DNA from: Ischnura elegans
Taxonomy: Eukaryota > Arthropoda > Insecta > Odonata > Coenagrionidae
DNA length: 64,000 bases
NCBI RefSeq assembly: GCF_921293095.1
Contig: NC_060254.1
Span: 62,356,069 to 62,420,068 of the forward strand
Direction of reading: 5' to 3'
Shown: positions 15,509 through 60,099 of the stretch, piece after piece
Layout: the number at the start of each line of letters is the position of its first letter
Position numbering within the stretch: the first letter of the stretch is position 1
The notes under the pieces: generated by a model
What the model saw: the letters and a program-made list of their open reading frames with translations, nothing else
The model's database searches: none
Told to the model about the DNA's origin: nothing
Position numbers and translations under genes: made by a program

Positions 15509-15807
15509 GAGTTGTTTTAGGAAACCTAATAAACATACACTGTGGTATGTTCCACAGAAGGTTTAATAACCGACCCAGGTTTCGACAATACACTATGTCA
15601 TTATCATTTAGGAAGTCATTTAGGTAGTCAAGGTAGTTATTATCAAGGTAGTCACTATGTCGTTATCAAGGTCATAGTGTATTGTCGAAACCTGGGTCGG
15701 TTATTAAAACTTATGTAGAACATACTACAGTGTATCTTTAATATGTTTCCTGTGACCAAGATCCACCAAATATCGCCGTCCAGCCTTGTGTTGAGGAGTT
15801 GTTTTAG
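15509..15807 (+). mobile_element. fold-back retroposon, family 1 copy A, with 12-bp target-site duplication
   Basis: The 12-bp direct repeat GAGTTGTTTTAG flanks the element (15509-15520 and 15796-15807). Between the repeats lie an inverted pair of arms (left about 15521-15611, right about 15665-15750), a loop with short repeated pieces, and a 45-bp tail at 15751-15795 that is not part of the palindrome. Each arm contains GACCCAGGTTTCGACA or its complement. The tail matches, in reverse complement, the tail of the copy at 38.8 kb. A long, variable target duplication plus inverted arms and a one-sided tail is the layout known for Penelope-like elements. The family assignment is inference, as there is no ORF. 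Confidence 0.8.
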
Positions 15808-24880: not shown

Positions 24881-27800
24881 GTGCCGCACGAGAATGAGTG
24901 AAAACACTACCCTCGGGCTACCACTGATTCTTCCCTTAGAAAAACGAACAAAAAGACAAATGGTAACCTACCTAGGCACACAGGCGTCAGGCCAAAATGG
25001 TACATACTACACGCATCACACGAAACATGCGCCGTAATTTTAATATTCCATAACATTGTAAATAATGTAATTAATGAATATTAAATATTTCACAATGCAA
25101 GTTCAAAATTGTTGATTTTTCTATTTACGGTACCCAAAAAATGTAATTTTTTTTTGTTCTTAAGGAGTATATCCCCATGACTAATAATAAATTTCATTCA
25201 TGACATAGGTTCTGAATTCTTACCCCTTAAGACCTGAAATATTAAACATTTATTACGTGACCCTCAATAGTGATGCACATCAAAATTCAAAGTTCTACCA
25301 GGGTACCGTTTTTTACAACGGAGCATTAAAAAATCGCACATTTCACTACCGACTGGTTCACTCATGCAAACATCGAGTAAATTTATTTAATACTTCTCAC
25401 CAAGGAAGAAGGTTTGTGGGATTTTTCGTCTTCGAGTGTAAAAAAATGAATGAAAATCGAAATCTGACTTGGACCCCTTCCACGTAGGAATCGGCAGAAG
25501 AATATTATTTTTCCATTCGAAAATATATTAAGTACGGTTTCAAACGCAATATCTTGATAAGAACATTGCCGACATATGCTTATTATATCATAAAATTTTT
25601 CGACGCTCGGGGGATTAGAATTGAAAATCAGAACCCCTCGAGTACATAAATAAGAAAATAATAAAAATAACAGCATTTAGAATTTTACATTCGAACACGA
25701 TTTGAAATCCAAATAGGGAAAAATCAATTCCATCAGATATTTCAAAAGAGGGACAAGCCAAATCAACACCACTATTGAGGATTATCATACGTATGTTCAG
25801 AAGAAGCATGTTGACTGTACCAGATGCTCGTATCATTAATTACAATTTTCACAGTTATTCGAAAACTTACCCCCACTAAGGAAGGCTAATTGCAATTCAA
25901 ACAACTTCCCAACAGGAATAAAAAAAAGTATCAACTTCGACTAACAATAAGACCACGCTTGGTTTATAATGAACGGCATTAAAAAGCTTTACGTAGGGAT
26001 GAGATAGATGCAAAGAGAAGCCGGCCGGTATATACACAAACCATGCCGTAGCCCAACTTTAAGACAATACGACTTTGTTACCACATTGCAAACCACTCAT
26101 CGCAAAGTACTGCGCAGATAACCACGAGAAAAATGATAGCCAGAACTTTAAAAGATATAAGATCCCAATCAATGCCGAAAATTTGGAGTATCAATCACGG
26201 ATAAGCCGAGTTAATCCAATGAAAAAGTCATCCAGTACTCGGGACGCCCATGTAAACCCCTGGGGGACTAATCCAAACTCCCATGCATCAGTAAACTCTG
26301 ATTGCGCTAGTGCCCTATTGCCTCCTCTCAATTAGCAACGATCGCGTTTGAACCCCATCGCAAATCCAACCCATAGGCTTCACCCAAATAAATTATTACC
26401 CTCCCCACCACCTTATGTACTTACGATTTGGTGTCGACTGAATCTCATTCAAAGGCGGGCTCCGCCTCTCAAAAAATCACCCATTTCCACCAATCGACCC
26501 TCCCTTACACGTGCCGGCAATTACAACCAATTCAATCGCTTTGAAGCACAAAGTAACCATTCTGGCAAACGGAAGAAGTGAGTGGGACAAATACGTGGTC
26601 TCGTACATAGGTAGAGGACTGACTAATTACCAAAAAATCGAGATTCGCGCTCGCCAACGGGCCTCGCTATTCATTTAATCCATTACCTAACACACCTCGT
26701 AGCTCCATTAAAATATGAATCACGAAAATAGCATAGTTACGACCCATGACTTATGCAGGGCTGAAACTGGGGCGGGGAGGGGGGACACGTGCCTCGGGTG
26801 GCAGATTTCACGAGGGTTTTGTTTTGAAAAGTTTATCTTAAAAATTAATTTCAGTATTCTAATGAAGTTATTTAACAATATTTATTAATTTATAAATTAT
26901 CATGCAATATTATTTATAAAACCTCTTAATAGCAAACATATGGTACGTAATTTCAACTACCGCATCTAGAAAAAAGTATTATATTTTAGTGATGGGGGAC
27001 CAGCGAGGGGGAGGTATAGGGAGGGGGATCAGGGCAAACTGATGTTTGACCCCCCCCCTCGGCGACACTCCTAGTTCCGACCTTGAACTTAGGAATCATT
27101 TTACAAATCCCACAGCCGAAAACGCTGAGGTGCTGGGCGGTAATAAAGAAAAACATTGCTTTCGAGAGATAATTTTTTCCGCCGAAACGAGCCCATTCTT
27201 TACTACCCCATGCCGGAGAGATACATACGTCAATTAGTAATCTGTACCATTTAGCAATAGCCCATCACATATGTAATTGATTTAGTGTAAAATTTCCCCC
27301 TCAAACACATTTACTGCAAGCGCAAAGAATTAAATTTTTTATAAGAAATACGAGTCTCGAAATGACGCGATTTTAATCATAGGGACCTTGAGCATTTCCA
27401 TGTATGCAGAAAGGATTCTCGGGTTTTCCACCGCGTAATTGACTGCATGAGTACCAAAGTTTCAAAGAACGACATGCTCTTCATCCACAGTGAATCTTTT
27501 GAATGCAGAAAGAAGGATCCCTGAGGTTAAAGAGCAAGTCGTTCTTCGAAACTTCGGGAGACATAAGCCAGCTAATCGAGAGAAAACCCGAGAATCCTTT
27601 CTATGCTTGATACGCCAGGAAAATCTAATATCTTACATTTCCATGTATGCCATTGGAAAAAGCTTAGTGAATTAGACCCTAAGGTGATATTTTCTAGGAT
27701 CTTTCGCGTATATTTCTCATCACATTTAGTTCCAGGAGCCAACCCTACGTTCAGACACATACCCCACGGATCCATTAACGGCACGCCAGGTTAACGTCAC

Positions 27801-31274: not shown

Positions 31275-31421
31275 ATCAAGATGCAAGAAAGAAAAACAGT
31301 GGCTTTCAGTCCTAAAATGATTTCACTATTCTCATGGTATAATGCCTCGGAAGAACCCTTAAAATGGCGCCGTGGAATGGAACCTATAAACTGAAGTCAT
31401 TTGTTGAGGCTTTTCCAAACT
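31275..31421 (+). repeat. 147-bp dispersed repeat, solo copy
   Basis: It begins ATCAAGATGCAAGAAAG and ends TTTTCCAAACT. It matches 32844-32990 at roughly 94 percent by eye, but here it lacks the inverted arms that enclose the other copy. Confidence 0.85.
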
Positions 31422-32736: not shown

Positions 32737-33124
32737 AATAGATTCTACAGGCTGGTGATGGTTTTCCGGGTTTACACCGCGTTGATTCATGTTTTTGCGG
32801 ATGACAGTTTCGGCCGCGTTCCAGCTCCCGTCTTCGGGTCCAAATCAAGATGCAAGAAAGAAAAACAGAGGCTTTCAGTCCTTAAATGATTTCACTATTC
32901 TCATGGCATAATGCCTCGGAAGAACCCTTAAAATGGTACCGTGGAATGGAACCTATAAAACGAAGTCATTTGTTGATGCTTTTCCAAACTTTTGGACCCG
33001 AAGACGGGAGCTGGAACGCGCCCGAAACTGTCGTCCGCAAAAACATGAATCAACGCGGTGTAAACCCGGAAAACCATCACCAAACAACTCACCGCGGTAG
33101 CCTCCGTAATAATAGATTCTACAG
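32737..33124 (+). mobile_element. fold-back retroposon, family 2, with 14-bp target-site duplication and captured 147-bp core
   Basis: AATAGATTCTACAG occurs perfectly at 32737-32750 and 33111-33124. Inside, a left arm (32751-32843) and a right arm (32993-33085) are inverted copies of each other at about 95 percent by eye, from GGTGATGGTTTTCCGGG to CGTCTTCGGGTCCAAA. Between them sits a copy of the 147-bp repeat of 31275-31421. A tail of about 25 bp (33086-33110) lies only on the right. The architecture (arm, core, arm, one-sided tail, long target duplication) is that of the 15.5 and 38.8 kb elements, although the sequence is unrelated by eye. Penelope-like origin is inferred. Confidence 0.8.
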
Positions 33125-38813: not shown

Positions 38814-39054
38814 ACGTTAGAGAAATCAGCTTAAGGTTGGATGGCGATACTTGGAACTTGTTGACAGGAAACATAATGAAGACACACTTTTGTATGTTCC
38901 ACAAGAGTGTTTAATACCGACCCAGGTTTCGACAGTACACTATGTCATTATCATGGTAATAATGACATAGTGTACTGTCGAAACCTGGGTCGGTATTAAA
39001 AACTCTTGTGGAACATACAAAAGTGTGTCTTCATTATGTTTCACGTTAGAGAAA
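38814..39054 (-). mobile_element. fold-back retroposon, family 1 copy B, with 12-bp target-site duplication
   Basis: ACGTTAGAGAAA occurs perfectly at 38814-38825 and 39043-39054. The 42-bp tail (38826-38867) is followed by a nearly perfect palindrome (38868-39042) with arms of about 84 nt and a loop of about 7 nt. Arms and tail match the element at 15.5 kb, which lies in the opposite orientation. The palindrome edge touches the target duplication on one side and the tail does so on the other, exactly as in copy A. The high arm identity suggests this copy is younger than copy A. Confidence 0.85.
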
Positions 39055-46221: not shown

Positions 46222-49200
46222 ATGAAAACGTTGCCCAAGAGTATGGAAAAATTCAAATTAAACAGTCAAGATAAGTACCATTTCTACAAGCTAGAAAGAA
46301 ATAAAAAGAGAAATCGTAGAGGTCAGGTACAATACCAGTGGGACACTCTTCATAAAATGATACAAATCAATAAGATGAAGAGTGAAACAAGTTTTGATGA
46401 TCTATATAAGGTAAACACTGCCTGATTGCTTAGTCAATATATGGATTAGTGTTTTCATGTTAACACATTCACCCTGGCCAGTGTCATAACAGTTCTTGCT
46501 CTAAGGTGACATGACTCACCAGCGATGTACACACCCCCATGGCTGTGTAGCCTATGTATTTGAGGGTCAAGCTGTTCTTAAATTCTAATGATATATTTCA
46601 GGGCAGTCATTGAATCAGATTTTAATTTATATTTTATCCTGCCAGATAAATGGTTTAATACTAAAATAGGCAACTTATACAACTTGGTGGATGTGTCCTT
46701 AAAACTTTGGGACTTGACAAGGAATGAAAATTGATATAAGTGATGAAGTGATCTACCTACTGATACAAATGCATTCTCCATTTATTGCAACAGGATACCA
46801 CACTAAGCAAGAGTGTTGATGACTTTATAAAAAAGGCATATGGACAAATACCTGATGTAGAGGGTAAGTATACCGGCAAACATACTTGCTTTGAACATGC
46901 TGGACATAAAATATATTTTGCTTGTAACACTTAAGATGCAAATTCTTGTATCCTTTATCGCTATTTCAATTTTATGTCATTAATCTTTAAAATCAATCAA
47001 TCCTATCATTTCCAACAGAACAAGACCATCCTGACGATTTAACTATCCATGAAAATGCAATGCCAAAAATAAATGTTTCACCAGATAAAAAAATTAATAC
47101 CAAAACATTGAACCAAATACAAGATAGTAAAATGGAATTAAATAACAAAGTTCTCATCAGCACGAGAGATAATGATATTACCTCAAGAAAGGTCATCAAA
47201 GTAAATAGTAGTGAAAATTCCAAAAATTCAAACATTTTGACAAATAATAGTCGCAGGACTCATCCAATTCAAGAGAAGAAGGAGGATAAACAACATTCTT
47301 ATTCAAGTAAAAATGGTCCTCAGCCATCCACAAGACAAACAGCAAAGGAATGTGAAATCAACAAGAATCAACAAGTCAATAATAAACTAACACAAAATGT
47401 TTCACCGACAGCTTTAGACCTAAAATTGAGGACAAATGATGAGAAAGAGATAACTCACCTTAAAACTCCACAAAAAAATGCTAATTCAGACAAAGATGAA
47501 TTATGCACCAAAAGCCATCAAAAAGACACATTAATCTTGCACCCAAAAGGGTTGTTGGCAGATAAGAAAATGCCCATTTTTCCAAAGGGCCATATCTCCA
47601 CAGGAAAGCTAAACACCCCATGTCAGCAGATATTCCTACCAGCTGTTCTAATGCCGCCTCAGAATAATTCCAATATTCCCATTACAAATAGAAAATCTAT
47701 CTCCTCCCTCCGTAAAATAGCTCCAAGTCATACAACGAACCATATTGGCTCAGGGAGTGGAGACCCAGGATATATAACAAACAGCTTGAATAGTGGTTTT
47801 TTTGTCAATGGAAGACATAGAGGTAACTTGGAAGCACCTATGATTTACTACAACTCACCACTCTTGCCTCAAATGTGTAGACAAGAAAGAGTCAACGATA
47901 TTCAAAACCCTTATATGAGCTACATGATGAACGAACATCTATGCCCTTCAATGACACATTTAGCCCCACAGGGCTTCTTGGATTGGGAAACAAATTTAAG
48001 TGTGAACACATCCAATTGTCAGCTTCCCAATCAACATTTCATTCCACCTTACGATGAAAATACTCCATTTTGGGATCTAACTTGGATACCAACTTGGGTA
48101 AGTGCATTCTTTATTACTTCTTTACTCCTTAAAACCCAAGAGTTATTAACAAGACTGATGAAGGGTATGCCATCTTACATAAGAAATGAAAGAAAATTGT
48201 TCTGATTTGTAAATAATCAACATTAACTGCTTTAAGCTTGGTAGTTATCAAACCAGATCTAAAACACACTTGCCCTCATGATATAGTCATTGATACATTT
48301 CCCGAAGTCTATTGTATTAATATTATCCAACTATCCATGCTAAATTCAACTTTTGATCAATGCATCATCCATGCTACTTCATTCTGCAACTGGTCCCAAA
48401 AAGAATGTAAGCAATAAATTCACTTGCATAGCAGTGAGTAAACGAGGTTATGACCAAGGAAGGGTAGAGGAGGGCATTCAAAAGAGTTCTTCCATCACAA
48501 TGCATTCCAAAAAAGACTATTTATAATGCTAAATCTACAGCATTAGATAAAAGAACGTAGACTTATCACTTAACGAACTTAATTTAACCACTCCTCGAAC
48601 AATTACTGATATGCATTCAGGGAGGGCTTTGGCATTCAAGCCCATGACACTCCGACTAGACCCAGGAGAGGCCACTCAAATGTTTATCAAACTGAAAGTC
48701 CCAACACTTTTCCACTCTCTCCAGAACAATTCTGAATATTTGAAAGTGTTTCATGGTATTAATTTTAACGTAAATCTTCATGTGCAAAAAAATCTTATAT
48801 TAAAAGGGATAATAATCTTAACCTCATGACAAATTACCACATGATTAATTATGAATTTCAAAACTTTTGGAGGATCTTGTGAATGACAATTAGGGCTTGG
48901 GATGACCAAATATTGGTAATACGTCTACTGCGAATGGGGTAAAGGAATCTAGTCATTTGAATTTTGAAGCAAATGTCACTTCCTGACCATTTGGCATTTT
49001 CTATGACTTACCAGGTTTTCCATAGAAGTACCTACCCTATAAACCACATAACTCAATGAGGCAATATAGGATATATAGGCAAATCCTCAACTCCCATTAA
49101 CCTAAGAATCAATAACCACAGGGCATCATGCACTTCCTCTGACTTTGCATCCTTCCCGGTGGCAAAACATGCGGGCACTCATCAGCGTCAATTCAATCAT

Positions 49201-52200
49201 TGTTACAATGTATCAGTTTTAGCCTCCCTTCCCCCCACAGACCACCCAATCAAACTTAATTCTATTGAATTAAGTTACATTTGGCTATTCAAAGCATTTC
49301 TTTTCTTAAACATCCACCGATAATCCCTTAATTGCCTCAGCTCACTCTTTTCTCCCCCTCTTTGGACCCTACCTCCCCTCTATTTCCCCTTCCCTCAGCT
49401 ATCCTTTACCCTCTACCTACAGTCTTTTACCTAACTCCGAGGAAGGTGGTAATGCCACCGAAAATTCAGTTCTTAATGTGAGTTTTCCATCTTCGTGCTC
49501 TGTGAGGTACTGCCCATCCTAGGGTTTTTTACGTTATATATAAAAGGATATAAATTACATTACTAGTTGTACAGGTGGGGGATGGAGTGGAGGGAAGCGG
49601 AAAAGTGAGAAATTTGTTAGGAAGTGACTGGGTAATGAGGATAGCACACGTTTTGCACCAGGTTCGTTGGCAAGGGATAGGTAAAGAGCTAGTACGGGTG
49701 GTGAACTTTGAGAGTGGTTTAGTCGTTTTGAGAATGGAAGATAGATTTGGCGGCCGACGGAAGGATAAGGATGGACAGCTAGAGAAGATTTTTCCAGTAG
49801 TGACATTGTTAGAAAGAATCGGAAAACGGCTTTTGATGATTCTGTTCAAAGCCTGCACGCCCGGGAAGTATGTGGTGGAAAGGGAGAGATGTGTGGTTTG
49901 TTTCTTGGTATGAATTTTGGGTTTGTAAGTATTGTGTAGGATTTTCTTACGCAGAAGGTTCTCAGGATATCCTCTACGAAGAAGGGAGTGGTGAAGATTA
50001 TTAAGAAAAATGTCCAAGATAAGCACACACTGCAAATGGAATGCACGCAGTACATATCTTTCAGGGACAAAAGGTGGCGGCAATCTTTGGCACCATAGAT
50101 TTTCTTATTCCCAAAAATGACTGGAACAAGAAGATCCCTTACAATCAGAAGCAGACAACTAAAATAAGGACAATAATAATAATAATTAACTCATTCATTG
50201 TTTTCGGAGTGAACTCCTTTGGAACATAGAAATTATTAAAGTGGTGCGCGGGACAATTAATACGGTAATAAACCAATCTGAAAACAAATAAAGGAAGTGG
50301 TCATATGCATTCCTACTAATAGACATATACAATGTTATCATTTAACAATTAACTGGGAAATAACTTAATTTCTTTTTCTAACAGAAAAAAGAACATTAAA
50401 CATACCAATAAACAAATAACACAACTTTTAAAAAGGAAATTTAGCTGTTTTTAGTGTTTACAACTAGGGAGAAAAAGATCCTTTAAATACAGAGGGCTAC
50501 CATATTTGAAGAGATTGAACATATAACAAGCCATGTTATATTTTCTCCTTGATTTAAGATCAAACCAGGACAGCTTTTTAAAATAAGGGGTAATGTGTTC
50601 ATTTCGCCGTAAGATGAATCTCACACAGGCGTTCAACAGACGTTGTTGCTTAATATTCAACTCCTCAGTTAAGTCATTGTACACAAGACTACAGTACCTA
50701 GTCTTAAGTGAGGGAGAATGATTGCGGTGACTAGTTCCTTTTTTAGCTGAAGTGGCAGTAGATTTCTATGGATTTTTAATTGATGTAGAATTGCATTTAT
50801 TTTGTTGGATATCCTCATCGTGTGTTCTTTCCAAGAAAGATTCATGGTTAATGTCGGCCCCAAATTTTTTACCCTGTTACAGAACGGTATGCTTACTTCC
50901 TCGACCATTATCATTGGCAGTTCTGTGAAATTTAAATTCGATACTATCTTGCTGTTGCCAATGATAATGGATTTAGATTTTAAGGAGTTTAACACGAGGA
51001 AATTTAACTTAGATCAAGATGTGATAGCAGATACGTCCTAAATAACCTTATTGATGGATTCACAGAGTTTCTTTGGAAGGCAATGGCAATAGATTTGCAA
51101 ATCATCTGCATAGATCATGTATTTGCAGTGAGCAATACAATTTGGAAGGTCTCTGATATACAACAAGAACAAAAGTGGCCCTAAAACTGAACCTTGTGGA
51201 ACACTACTAGATGTTGTTACCCAGTTAGATAAGTCTCCTTTGGAATCTTTGACAGATTGATGACGTCCATTTAGGTAGGAAAAGAACCAGTCAAGGGATG
51301 AACTTGAAAATTTGAGATTTTTCATTTTTTGTAGGGGAAGAGCATGGTTTACACTATCAAAAGTCTTACTAAAGTCAAACAAGACCAATATTGTCACCAC
51401 CTTTTTATCAATAGCGAGCCTAATATCTTCAGTGACTTTAATTAAGGCTGTCCATGTGGAGTAGTTCTTACAAAATCCTGACTGAAATGGGTCTAATAAC
51501 TGATTAGCAGTTAGATGATCTACTACCTGTGAATACACTACCTTTTCTAGATTTTGAGGTGGAGCAGAGGATGGATATGGGTCGATAATCTCCTGGAGAA
51601 AAGGGAGTTTTAACTTTACAGATCGGTCGAATCAAAGATGATTTCCAAACTGGGGGAAATATGCTAGACATAAGACAACAAGATGAAAATATCAAGTAGA
51701 GCTGGAATCACAGATGTGGGTGAGGCTTTTAGGTATTTTACCGAAATGTCATTAATTCCAACAGAATTTCATTTAGCGTTTCGTAGGATATTCTGCAAGA
51801 CATGAGGGGTTATATGGTTAAAGTAAAAATTTGAGTCATTGAACGGAACAAAAGGTTCAATAGATTGATGTTAGGAGTATGGACATCATTGCCGTTTGGC
51901 AGGGGGGAGCCACATGATGCAAAGTACTCATTCATGGCATCTAATGATAGCCAGAGAACTGAACTTTTATTAGTCTGTCTTACTAGACCGAGTTTTTTTA
52001 CCTCACACCAAAGGTCATTTGAATTCGTGAGGTTAGAGAGAATACTAGTATAATACTGTTGTTTTGACTTGATCGCCAATCGCTTAACGAGATTGCGTTG
52101 CCTTATAAATAGTTGTTATATTGCATTAGTTTTGGTTCAAATAAGAGTTAATTCTCAGTTTATCCCTCACTTTCGTTTGTGCCTTTAACTCAGATGTAAT

Positions 52201-56244: not shown

Positions 56245-58254
56245 CTAAACCAATGGTAACGAAGAGTCACAGAAACAGTATAATTTCATCATTAAATCTT
56301 CAACACAAAATGACTGATTTCCATATTTGTTGATGCGATTTACATCACCAATGACATGCCCTCCGTTTTCACTCCAGGCATCCCTTTTCAGGATAGCCTC
56401 CAGTTGAGCTCCACCAGGAGATGTTTCCACGGAGACTCGAGTTTCAATAACTAAACCAGCAGGGGAAATAATTGGGGCACTTGGCAACATTAACTGAGCA
56501 TTCAACACTTTTACAAGTTTCAATTCTGAACATTTAAAACGGAAACCAGATTCTATAATCATTTTGTTAACATGGGATACCAAAGCCTCGGCAGCTTCAA
56601 TTGCATGAGGGTCTTCAGGGCTCATCTCCTTCTCATTTCCACAAACACAGTACGTGCGTGGTATGCCAATTTCAAGACAAGATCGATTCTTTGGTAAGGG
56701 CCTAAAGGGAGATAAACCAACTGTTCCCCAGCGAGGTACCTTTGACACAGGACCAAGATTGTCCATAGCAATATCCATGAGAAGCTCGTAGATATCAAAC
56801 CAGCTCATTAAAGTAGCTCTATTCAACATGAGGCCCTGGTGCAAATGAGAATGAGATTGCTGAAAAGATTCAGGAAGTGATATAGAAAAAAATGGCATTC
56901 TTTCTTCTACCCTCCCTATCACAGTGGAACGGATATTATCATAGCGATTGCCATGATCTCCCATTACGATGGTAATTGCATTCTTAAAACCACCACCTGT
57001 CCATATGCGTTTTAGCATGGATACTATATCATTGTCCACCACTTTGATTGAATTTATATGATCATGGCTTAATGCAGTAAGAAAAGAAAATGCAAAGTAC
57101 CGAACATGGGACATCTTTCTCACAAATTCCTCGGTGTAATTGAATAAAAACATATGCTGTGGAATGTTGCCATAACACCTCGAATCTGAAGACTTGAATG
57201 TCTTGATTTTGTCAATAGCTAACCAGAATGGACGCATGTAGTAATCAGTCGGAGGATTAAAAAATCCTTTGGCAAGATAATTAAAAATAGAAAATTCAGG
57301 TAGATCTTCAGCAAACATGGTAACATACCCAGCTTGGCTAAAATTTTTCCAAACAAATGGGACATCGTCAAAGTTCTGATGACGAGATTGAGTATCGCCC
57401 CAAACTGGTATATGGAGCTTTTCATCAGGTAATACATCGTCTTTAAACAAATGCTTGTAAGCTGCCATTCCAGATAACATTGGCATCATGTTTGGATAGG
57501 TATTGTCCCCAGTTTTAGTCAGGCCTTTAAAGATGTGCGCTTTTAAAATATTGGTGAGAAAATTGTATGTTTTAGGTAACTGGTTGATAAAATTCAACCT
57601 AGACATAGAATCAAAAACTAATATAAAAACACTAGGTTGATTTGGCTTGCTTCTATCTTCAAATTCATGTGCAATGGGTTTCAGACCTTTTGATGCAAGT
57701 GATGGTACATAAGCATGGGCAGTCTCATAAACAAGTCGACCATAAGGAAGCTGATAACATTTAACGACAACAAATTCTGAAAGAAGAATTTCTGGTTCAT
57801 TGAAGATGAGAGGAGGACGAAGACGTACACGATTATCAGTGTGGTTGCCTCGCTCTATATCTTGATAAGCACACTGAAGATCTACGTTTGGAATGCCGCT
57901 GGATTTAATTCCGGAGATATTTCGACGAATGAAACCATCACTATCAACATAGGTCAAATAAGGCTGCGTCTGTCCACAGAGAATTTTTTGCCATGGGCGT
58001 ATGTACTGTAAAATACTGGGATCGAAGGGATCATAGTCTGGCAGTATGCATGGATGGCTGTCAGGCACAGAAGATGAATTCCTTTCATCTCGGAGCAAGT
58101 ACTCTTCGACGTGGATGCGATAAAATTCTGCTTCAACAGATGATATGTACGATCCATGGATAAAAAAACAGATCAAAACAGAGCATACAGCAACGATGAA
58201 GAAAAAAAATTTTTTCAGCGTAATCCCACGAATGCTGGACTTCAAATTTTTCAT
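56245..58254 (-). CDS. DUF229-family sulfatase/phosphatase-like type II membrane protein
   Basis: The product has about 669 residues from the ATG at 58254-58252, which has a G at -3. Residue numbers here count from that Met. A hydrophobic segment at about residues 16-33, just after a basic stretch, predicts a type II signal anchor with the rest in the lumen or outside. The DUF229 domain (alkaline phosphatase/sulfatase fold) follows: FDSMSRLNFI (214-223), the NTYPNMMPMLSG block (251-262), LSHDHIN (395-401) and MGDHGNRYDN (431-440). The Asp and His residues of these blocks fit the family's metal site. CVCG and a Cys-rich end (CVED, CFC) follow. All of it lies in one exon. The frame is open to 58305 without another ATG, and a good minus-strand acceptor (TTTGTTTCTCAG) ends at 58295, so an upstream exon that is non-coding, or adds a few residues, is likely. 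The substrate is unknown; the length is normal for the family. Confidence 0.9.
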   Translation of the reverse strand: MKNLKSSIRGITLKKFFFFIVAVCSVLICFFIHGSYISSVEAEFYRIHVEEYLLRDERNSSSVPDSHPCILPDYDPFDPSILQYIRPWQKILCGQTQPYLTYVDSDGFIRRNISGIKSSGIPNVDLQCAYQDIERGNHTDNRVRLRPPLIFNEPEILLSEFVVVKCYQLPYGRLVYETAHAYVPSLASKGLKPIAHEFEDRSKPNQPSVFILVFDSMSRLNFINQLPKTYNFLTNILKAHIFKGLTKTGDNTYPNMMPMLSGMAAYKHLFKDDVLPDEKLHIPVWGDTQSRHQNFDDVPFVWKNFSQAGYVTMFAEDLPEFSIFNYLAKGFFNPPTDYYMRPFWLAIDKIKTFKSSDSRCYGNIPQHMFLFNYTEEFVRKMSHVRYFAFSFLTALSHDHINSIKVVDNDIVSMLKRIWTGGGFKNAITIVMGDHGNRYDNIRSTVIGRVEERMPFFSISLPESFQQSHSHLHQGLMLNRATLMSWFDIYELLMDIAMDNLGPVSKVPRWGTVGLSPFRPLPKNRSCLEIGIPRTYCVCGNEKEMSPEDPHAIEAAEALVSHVNKMIIESGFRFKCSELKLVKVLNAQLMLPSAPIISPAGLVIETRVSVETSPGGAQLEAILKRDAWSENGGHVIGDVNRINKYGNQSFCVEDLMMKLYCFCDSSLPLV

Positions 58255-58294
58255 AACTGGTTCAGCTTTCTTGAAAGGGTCCTTCCCAGGGGAT

Positions 58295-60099
58295 CTGAGA
58301 AACAAATTTTAGAGCTCATTTTAGTATAGGTAAAAGAGTTGTATGTTTTCCTTAGGATAGGAACAAAACAAAAAACTGTGTGAAACAGCAGCAATATTAT
58401 TTAGTTTAAAATAAAATAATATACATACTCAGGAAGGAAATGAAGGTTAATCAGAGACAAGGGTTACCTAGTTCAGTTGATAGCCATGAATTTCATCCAT
58501 TAAGGCAAAACCAAAGAAGTCAATAAGAACCATGCATGACCACTATATTATTTACAGTGAAATAATTTTTTTAAACAATATTATTCAAACATGTGAGAAC
58601 TTGACAGTCAGTCAGTAAGTACTTTGAGTAAAGAGTGAACTATATAGAGCCTAATTCCAGCACTTCAAAATAACAAAAACATAATAGAAACTCAAGATAT
58701 CATAGAAATTAAAATAAATGATAGAATTAGGTAAGGCTTGGTCTATACTTTCTTACTAAATGCTACAGAAAAGATATGATTTTAGAGTCGTTAAGCAACT
58801 AAACTTACAACAGTATTGCTCATGATTAAATCCAGTAAATGGGAAAAAATTTGAAATTGGTATAATGAAATATTTGTGACCATGCACATACAAATAAAAA
58901 TACTTATACTAGCATCACAATTACTTTTCCCAAAATTAATTATTACCTCAATTGTAAAGATATATTTCCCTTACATAAAAAATGAATATTGACGGGTCAA
59001 GGGTTGTCATGATTATTATTAATTGATTGCAATTAATAATATTCATGACAACCTGATTGTGTAAAATTTAACATCTGGTAGTATCCATTTATGCGTGCAA
59101 AAACATAATTTTGCACTCTACACGGATTTCAAGGATCTAAACTAGGGCCAGAAGAGAACCCAAACCTTACAGCCCAAGTGTCTGTGTGTTCAATACATAG
59201 GAAAATATTAATGTACTACACATGCATTCGACAAGATGTAAGTGTGATGGGTAATGAACTACTATTATTAACATCATCAGTGATTCACTGATTAATGAAG
59301 GTACTTAAGGAAGCAGAACATTTCTACAGCATGAAGAAAAATGTACCGTTTTATAACATTCCAGTTTTTTGCCTGAGTGATAAAGCATGCCTATTCTGAC
59401 CCTACATCTGTTTCAAAATATAAATGATGAGAAGGCACATATTCAAGCAAAATATACTACTGCAAAAATAAAATATTTATCAATCGAAATCTTGTTTCGT
59501 GTTACGTAAAATATTATCGATTATAATGCACTTCACTCAACTTTGGGCATCATCTATACGCTAAGATTTAAAAGAGAGCCCAATTTTTGTACTTTTCAGC
59601 ATTAAGTGTACCTTTGACAACTCCATCATCGTTTCAAGTACCATGTTATCTTGCAGAAAATAAGAATTATAGTATTCCTTACATTAATGCAGAGTTTGAG
59701 CATAAAATATCAAATGCTTGGTTTTCAACTTATAAATTACTAAATCAATGGCATTGCCAATATTAAGGAGTTTACATCATGAGAATAAATTCCTACCAGA
59801 AGAGAACATTCGTATAACATTTTTTTTTGTATAATACGTTTTTGAGATCCCTAAAATTGCAAGTTATAAAAGACATTTTTTGACAGAAAAGGCCTTTCTC
59901 ACATGGCTGTGCCCTCAGATTTCATAAGAGCTACTACCCCCTTCTGGGATTCCAATGATGAATGGATAAAATAAGATAAGACAACTGAGAAATCGCTGAG
60001 AATCCAATGTACAAACCATTGCACAGGCTTTTGATGCAAAGTCGCTTGAATTTTCAAACACATTTCAATGAGAACAAGTGGGAGGAACCCATATGCTTA
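58295..60099 (-). other. probable 5' intron of the DUF229 gene
   Basis: The acceptor at 58295 implies that the transcript begins further right. The region is AT-rich and CpG-poor, like the gene bodies to its left. I found no convincing upstream exon. Confidence 0.45.
59002..59053 (+). repeat. 23-bp hairpin
   Basis: GGTTGTCATGATTATTATTA is the start of a left arm (59002-59024) that pairs with 59031-59053 across a 6-nt loop, with one mismatch by eye. It could be a tiny MITE or a stem-loop RNA precursor. Confidence 0.8.

Follow-up and report, generated by a model that had tools for sequence, protein, structure and literature searches.

A very small insertion of a Penelope-like element (PLE), two-headed and enclosing a 147-base copy of the neighbouring chromosome between its mirrored ends, occupies positions 32737-33124 of the window (the whole 64,000-nucleotide stretch of the Ischnura elegans genome that was analysed). 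The explanation that fits it best, and that we consider probable, is that two target-primed PLE cDNAs, one for each strand, were started at the internal sites A and B and were joined head to head. The first-pass annotation, made from the letters of the sequence, had described a 14-bp duplication, inverted arms of about 90 nt and a tail on one side, all of which were confirmed (Table 1). It had also proposed a retroposon-like insertion, which held. It had missed that the insertion is a truncated PLE end whose relatives carry reverse transcriptase (RT) and GIY-YIG domains, and that two target-primed cDNAs are the best explanation of the mirrored arms.

Table 1. Features of the PLE insertion and of the source of its core (positions in the window).
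Feature	Positions	Strand	Remarks
Left TSD, AATAGATTCTACAG	32737..32750	.	Exact 14-bp repeat
Left arm, inverted PLE end, unit positions 92 to 1, tail-less	32753..32844	-	Self-comparison, tblastn
Captured core	32844..32990	+	95% copy of 31275-31421
Right arm, PLE end, unit positions 1 to 92	32991..33082	+	
Minimal type I hammerhead-like motif	32994..33036	+	Fold; canonical counterpart in L079/L080
ATG, probable start of the PLE reading frame	33045..33047	+	In frame with L034
One-sided tail, 28 nt	33083..33110	+	Right side only
Right TSD	33111..33124	.	14/14 identical to left TSD
Source of the core, apparently single copy in the genome	31275..31421	+	

The right arm and the tail together (32991-33110) are called the unit, and their nucleotides are numbered as positions 1-120. 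In the self-comparison of the window, the two 92-nt arms were 98% complementary, with two differences. The left arm would be the cDNA begun at start site B and the tail would belong to the cDNA begun at start site A, while the ATG in the right arm may serve as the start codon.

Judged by sequence, the unit is the end of a PLE and includes the hammerhead-like region, the probable start codon and the first part of the reading frame, in which the tail is contained. This assignment was made because the unit of locus L034 leads without a break into an open frame that has RVT_1 and GIY-YIG domains (142-2607 of L034; 822 aa read from unit position 1) and because the protein encoded there matches the arms and the tail. 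Pfam scores for this frame were 53.3 for RVT_1 (cut-off 29.6, 3.9e-14) and 23.0 for GIY-YIG (cut-off 22.6, 1e-4), and among proteins of known structure the encoded one weakly matched RTs (E 0.004) and telomerase (E 0.11). A tblastn comparison of the L034 protein with the window matched the right arm plus tail (E 1.1e-13) and the left arm (E 2.6e-8). Beyond the arms and tail the only match in the window was a weak one at 49066-49182, to the GIY-YIG part of the frame (33%, E 0.012), perhaps a remnant of another PLE. Immediately upstream of its unit, locus L018 has a frame with the RT motif YVDD and a GIY-YIG-like motif; the Pfam score of this frame for RVT_1 was 28.3 bits, just below the cut-off of 29.6, and the Pfam search found no GIY-YIG in it. 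Relatives sharing the same ends therefore have the single frame of PLEs, with telomerase-like RT and C-terminal GIY-YIG, and the remaining PLE traits found were a pLTR, often inverted, with a tail at one end (28 nt here), and short TSDs. The window copy itself has no RT or GIY-YIG coding sequence, retains residues 1-41 of the 822 of L034, and is presumably a truncated element that was mobilised in trans. At 1-261 of L034, upstream of the open frame, there is an inverted piece of the PLE sequence that normally precedes the unit, and a coding copy thus shows a similar head-to-head design.

The genome was searched with the complete element, with a 22-base pattern from the arm and with a 26-base pattern from the tail. 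The element search returned 133 matches (40 of 1,550 candidates scored). Apart from the element, which matched itself on both strands, and the place from which the core was copied, these fell in the arms or the tail. The arm and tail patterns had 763 and 254 exact matches, respectively, and the reversed control of each had none. A total of 61 loci were annotated, namely the 20 best element matches, 20 tail-pattern loci, 20 arm-pattern loci (17 fetched as pairs and three as singles) and the window. Head-to-head pairs were present in 47 of them (14 from the best matches, 14 from the tail pattern, 18 from the arm pattern, and the window copy), and the other 14 were unpaired by the criterion used. 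The outer ends of the pairs were almost invariant. The smaller one lay at 91-97 in 47/47 pairs and the larger one at 118-120 in 46/47, the exception being L047, in which the tail restarts after 19 nt. Every one of the 47 pairs had one tailed and one untailed outer end (displaced in L047), and neither a two-tailed nor an untailed pair was found among them. The 18 arm-selected pairs, which were picked without regard to the tail, had one tail in 18/18 cases; independent choice of the start site gives one tail at most half the time, which puts the probability of this outcome by chance at no more than 0.5^18 (about 4 in a million).

Orientation was also counted between neighbours. Among the first 100 of the 763 arm-pattern hits, those less than 12 kb apart were head to head in 31 cases, on the same strand in one and tail to tail in none. 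Of the 28 head-to-head arm pairs less than 3 kb apart in these 100 hits, 22 were annotated and six longer ones (334-1,594 bp) were left out. Pairs of open reading frames were head to head in 15 cases, on the same strand in two and tail to tail in none, a count that covers 65 of 99 rows, chosen by eye for shared contigs. TSDs of 6-18 bp (median 13) flanked 45 of the 47 pairs, L024 and L025 being the two in which none was found. These repeats are not a product of chance, because swapping left and right flanks between copies yielded a repeat of at least 10 bp in 1/300 trials, compared with 39/47 real pairs. TSD-like repeats also surrounded a single arm in L013, L014 and L075, and in L050 the partner ends near 77.

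Inverted ends, a TSD and a captured insert would also be expected of a DNA transposon or foldback element that has 92-bp terminal inverted repeats and picked up host sequence. However, the ends of the pairs are asymmetric, with one tail per pair, their inner ends are variable, and in relatives the arm is contiguous with an RT/GIY-YIG frame, which makes such an origin very improbable. A metazoan retrozyme was considered and does not fit, since the units are paired, inverted and contiguous with a PLE frame in relatives. Metazoan non-LTR retrozymes are described as small, with type I hammerheads, and PLEs have been suggested as their mobilisers, but they consist of tandem repeats of about 300 bp with canonical ribozymes (PMC7229834), whereas the window element is a non-tandem PLE end.

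The first-pass annotation had noted that the element has the same design as another group of insertions in the window, family 1, without similarity in sequence. This was borne out: the self-comparison of the window detected no sequence similarity between the element and family 1 (15519-15751 and 38868-39042), and both occur as pairs with one tail. The family 1 copies at 15519-15795 and 38826-39042 have 84-nt arms, 12-bp TSDs and one tail each, on opposite sides. There were 1,522 family 1 candidates in the genome, and of 40 full matches scored, 21 had a tail-less mirrored partner ending at 65-96 of 132. A second tail nearby was not found for any of the 40, a tail-biased sample, and all 21 partnered copies have one tail. 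The comparison of family 1 with the PLE pairs concerns the design only, not protein. An old fold-back with arms 77% complementary over 52 nt and an exact 15-bp flanking repeat, CATTTCCATGTATGC, occupies 27408-27602.

The core of the window element differs at 8 of its 147 positions from its source, has the same orientation, and lies to the right of it, with 1,315 bp between the end of the source and the TSD. That the segment also exists alone and without arms, about 1.4 kb to the left, had been seen in the first reading of the sequence and was confirmed. A 401-bp query around the source found two candidates in the 1.72-Gb genome, the source itself and the core, in a search that passes over very common words. 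This makes the core a copy of DNA that is apparently single-copy. Its divergence from the source exceeds that between the arms (2/92), with a difference that is not significant (Fisher p 0.32). Four of the eight differences form two adjacent doublets, at 31368-31369 and 31391-31392, possibly a trace of error-prone copying. A rival reading takes the 147-bp segment as belonging to the element itself and its solo copy as a truncated element. Nothing was found in favour of this possibility: the two candidates genome-wide stand against the 763 exact matches of the arm pattern, and in the element search (with 40 of the 1,550 candidates scored) the core was matched at these two places only. We give it practically no weight. 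The first-pass annotation had proposed that a variable core between constant arms and tail would distinguish capture from an internal part, and the outcome among the 47 pairs favours capture.

The space between the arms varied considerably: the arms overlap in 17 of the 47 pairs, are 0-20 nt apart in 20 and are farther apart in 10. The core is thus not conserved, which supports capture, with long local capture being rare in the sample. A local source was looked for in the 17 cores of at least 12 nt, with flanks of 1.3 kb on the left and 0.4-0.5 kb on the right in seven, 0.2 kb in two and 2.3-4.9 kb in eight; the core of L028 (2,037 nt) was too long for shuffles. A convincing local source was identified in 2/16 shuffle-tested cores, those of the window and L027. 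In L027, 17 nt of the 47-nt core were copied exactly from 114 bp to the left (0/100 shuffles). The window copy is then the sole clear large local capture among the 47 pairs, and L027 a short one. The earlier suggestion that the mechanism can enclose local or foreign sequence stands as far as capture goes, but a local origin is convincing in those two cores only. The cores of L038, L039 and L042 were rejected as local copies, their nominal p of 0.01-0.03 resting on 9-10 nt. Among the longer cores, that of L021, and that of L028 in part (by its frame), are PLE sequence, and L016 and L039 contain pieces of the element, as do the shorter cores of L059 and L045. Those of L060 (76 nt), L026 (246 nt), L048 and L051 had no placed origin.

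The joins between arms carry a signature of their own. At least four exactly shared bases were present at 6/18 filler-free joins, compared with 1.3% of random joins. A looser count that allows mismatches to the reference copy gave at least four overlapping bases at 14/18 joins and is not comparable with the 1.3% null. In L041, L044, L058 and L067, which have 0-1 nt of filler, the tailed arm is 11-21 positions shorter inside than the tail-less arm, a shortfall that exceeds any overlap. The inner ends have a hot spot, at -2 to 1 in 18/47 right arms and at -3 to 1 in 10/47 left arms. This hot spot at unit positions -3 to 1 (32844 and 32991 in the window) could mark the 5' end of the RNA or a stall of the RT. 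The two arms of a pair also resemble each other in sequence: 52/97 left-arm variants were common to the right arm of the same element, compared with 5.9 expected when arms of other elements are used (L047 excluded). Many of the shared variants recur across elements and may mark subfamilies. The two cDNAs therefore derive from one RNA or at least from one kind of source.

The mechanism that we propose is read from end products only. A GIY-YIG enzyme would cut both target strands in a stagger, and each target 3' end would prime reverse transcription of PLE RNA. In both arms the side that corresponds to the RNA 3' end faces outward, so that each side of the staggered cut can have primed one of them as a cDNA. 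One cDNA would start at internal site A (position 120), giving the tail, and the other at site B (about position 93), 27 nt away on the RNA, giving the tail-less arm. Both would be templated by the same RNA or by RNAs of one source, and a single RNA may serve the two. Their 3' ends would then be joined, often at short shared sequences, or by means of filler for which the element or DNA close by served as template. For the window copy, the model has both cDNAs ending near position 1 and being bridged by the 147 nt of unique DNA from 1.3 kb to the left, copied presumably from DNA rather than RNA. In a variant of this last step, the core would have been taken from a nearby transcript by template switching of the RT, not from chromosomal DNA. 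Template switching is a plausible activity of an RT, and the core is in direct orientation. However, an RNA donor need not be local (by arithmetic, a donor drawn at random from the genome would lie within 3 kb about 2 times in a million), and no open frame of 130 aa overlaps the source, a result that is compatible with a transcript there. We regard the transcript as an unlikely donor, with a share of probability that deserves mention.

Some of these steps have been observed in another PLE. The PAc protein was reported to cut and extend both strands in vitro and to start reverse transcription at two internal sites that bound the tail, with a start site that is alike between strands (PMC11167929). 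This parity neither demands nor forbids one start of each kind. A stricter form of the two-cDNA model can be offered tentatively, as a possibility of less than even probability: a paired enzyme on a single RNA would use sites A and B once each, one per strand, which would leave exactly one tail, and the cDNAs would then be welded head to head by an end joining that is able to copy local single-copy DNA. Two cDNAs are not obligatory, because 14/61 loci are unpaired and the TSD-like repeats of L013, L014 and L075 flank a single arm. The partner of L050 that ends near 77, the hot spot of inner ends and the small share of cores with a convincing local source (2/16) also weigh against the proposed mechanism.

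The main alternative is self-priming, in which a single cDNA, folded back at a palindrome, serves as its own template for the mirrored arm. It was proposed, and argued for, as the source of inverted PLE structures (Arkhipova et al. 2013; PMC3846280). Several observations agree with it: the inner-end positions of paired arms are correlated (Spearman 0.89 over 43/47 pairs, the four pairs with far-upstream ends being dropped), the arms share variants, and some joins lie at palindromes (CATG in L040, GATC in L066) or at imperfect palindromes near TGATCTGCAGATCA, upstream of the unit. A defined 5' end of the RNA near position 1 would also account for part of the correlation. On the other hand, a fold-back copy should extend through the tail into target DNA, whereas the second arm stops at 91-97 in all of the pairs, adjacent to a second start site of the type reported for PAc. 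Self-priming would also need the tailed arm of L041, L044, L058 and L067 to be shorter inside than the tail-less one, which a single fold-back cDNA would not yield, and by itself it does not put chromosomal DNA between the arms. Priming on two strands followed by end joining is therefore preferred over self-priming, which we consider improbable.

The right arm includes a string that reads GGAC-CCGAAGA-C-GGGAGC-TGGAAC-GCGCCC-GAAACTGTC-GTCC. Its minimum-energy fold has stems I and II, with a z-score that is not significant. At the corresponding place, L079 and L080, relatives 58-59% identical in protein, have GGAC-CTGAGGA-A-GCCAAC-TGGAAC-GTTGGC-GAAATATC-GTCC, with a canonical core. Counted from the letters, the window family and these relatives have the same stem I and loop; three pairs of stem II are changed on both sides, and a fourth is mismatched in the window family. 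No homologous hammerhead was found in the 411 bases inspected of each of the relatives L078 and L081. Two of four relatives thus support homology of the motif to PLE hammerheads. Among the 94 arms, many of which stop short of the motif, 45 motifs were matched; U4 is C in 45/45, CCGAAGA is present in 43, and the canonical CTGANGA in none. Changes of U4 impair hammerhead cleavage. Ribozyme activity of the motif in the window family is therefore doubtful. The view that the arms are hammerhead-like, taken in the first-pass annotation, agrees with the fold and the position of the string. Inner ends were not concentrated at the hammerhead cut (42-44), where 2/47 left arms and 0/47 right arms end. 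Searches with the Rfam hammerhead models gave no match in the element at E up to 10 or in five loci at E up to 5, and at the gathering threshold no Rfam model matched the window. The hammerhead negatives are uninformative, since the canonical minimal hammerheads of L079 and L080 were missed as well. A weak ribozyme need not stop mobility, because insertion in vitro persists in hammerhead mutants of PAc (PMC11167929).

Inverted pLTRs, one-sided tails, TSDs, captured unrelated sequence and minimal hammerheads are all in print for PLEs (PMC3846280, PMC11167929, PMC7229834, PMC6155905). The element resembles those of the Penelope/Poseidon group (Drosophila virilis Penelope, Anolis PAc, Adineta vaga Pen1-6), as reported, in its frame with RT and GIY-YIG, its TSD, its inverted pLTR with a hammerhead-like motif, its one-sided tail at the start of the ORF and its head-to-head inserts (PMC3846280, PMC11167929). 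The tail of PLEs, 30-40 bp long, is described as optional (PMC3846280, PMC11167929), and the 2013 paper places it on one of the inverted pLTRs (PMC3846280). In PAc, tail and hammerhead are reported to lie where the ORF begins, a placement similar to that in the unit (PMC11167929). Unlike published PLEs as presented in these sources, the I. elegans copies compared are mostly a few hundred bp long and have a tailed and an untailed end in every pair examined. A strict rule of one tail per pair was not found stated in the titles and abstract openings searched, a set that subscription papers are mostly outside of. For A. vaga Pen1 and Pen3a, host sequence unrelated to the element is also described between pLTRs, with flanking TSDs in some cases, but as spacers of 0.9-1.5 kb or a whole intron-containing gene (PMC3846280), whereas the inverted truncated arms of the window copy enclose 147 bp of single-copy sequence whose source is 1.3 kb away. 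The 2024 study reported two-strand extension and internal starts in vitro, the later steps not being validated there (PMC11167929).

Hundreds of short, well-preserved insertions in one genome make steps of PLE integration readable from their end products, namely the fixed outer ends, the single tail per pair, the joins at short shared sequences and the templated filler. A model of one RNA, two start sites and two strands thereby becomes directly testable, and PLE insertion can duplicate nearby single-copy DNA. In twin priming of LINE-1, the second target strand primes on the element RNA and an inverted 5' part results. That process brings about an inversion but no repeat of the 3' end, whereas the window element has the same end twice. 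Two open frames on the minus strand of the window were noted as well: one of 197 aa at 51038-51631 that by eye resembles a LINE reverse transcriptase, with the motif YADD, and one of 687 aa at 56245-58308, possibly a host gene.
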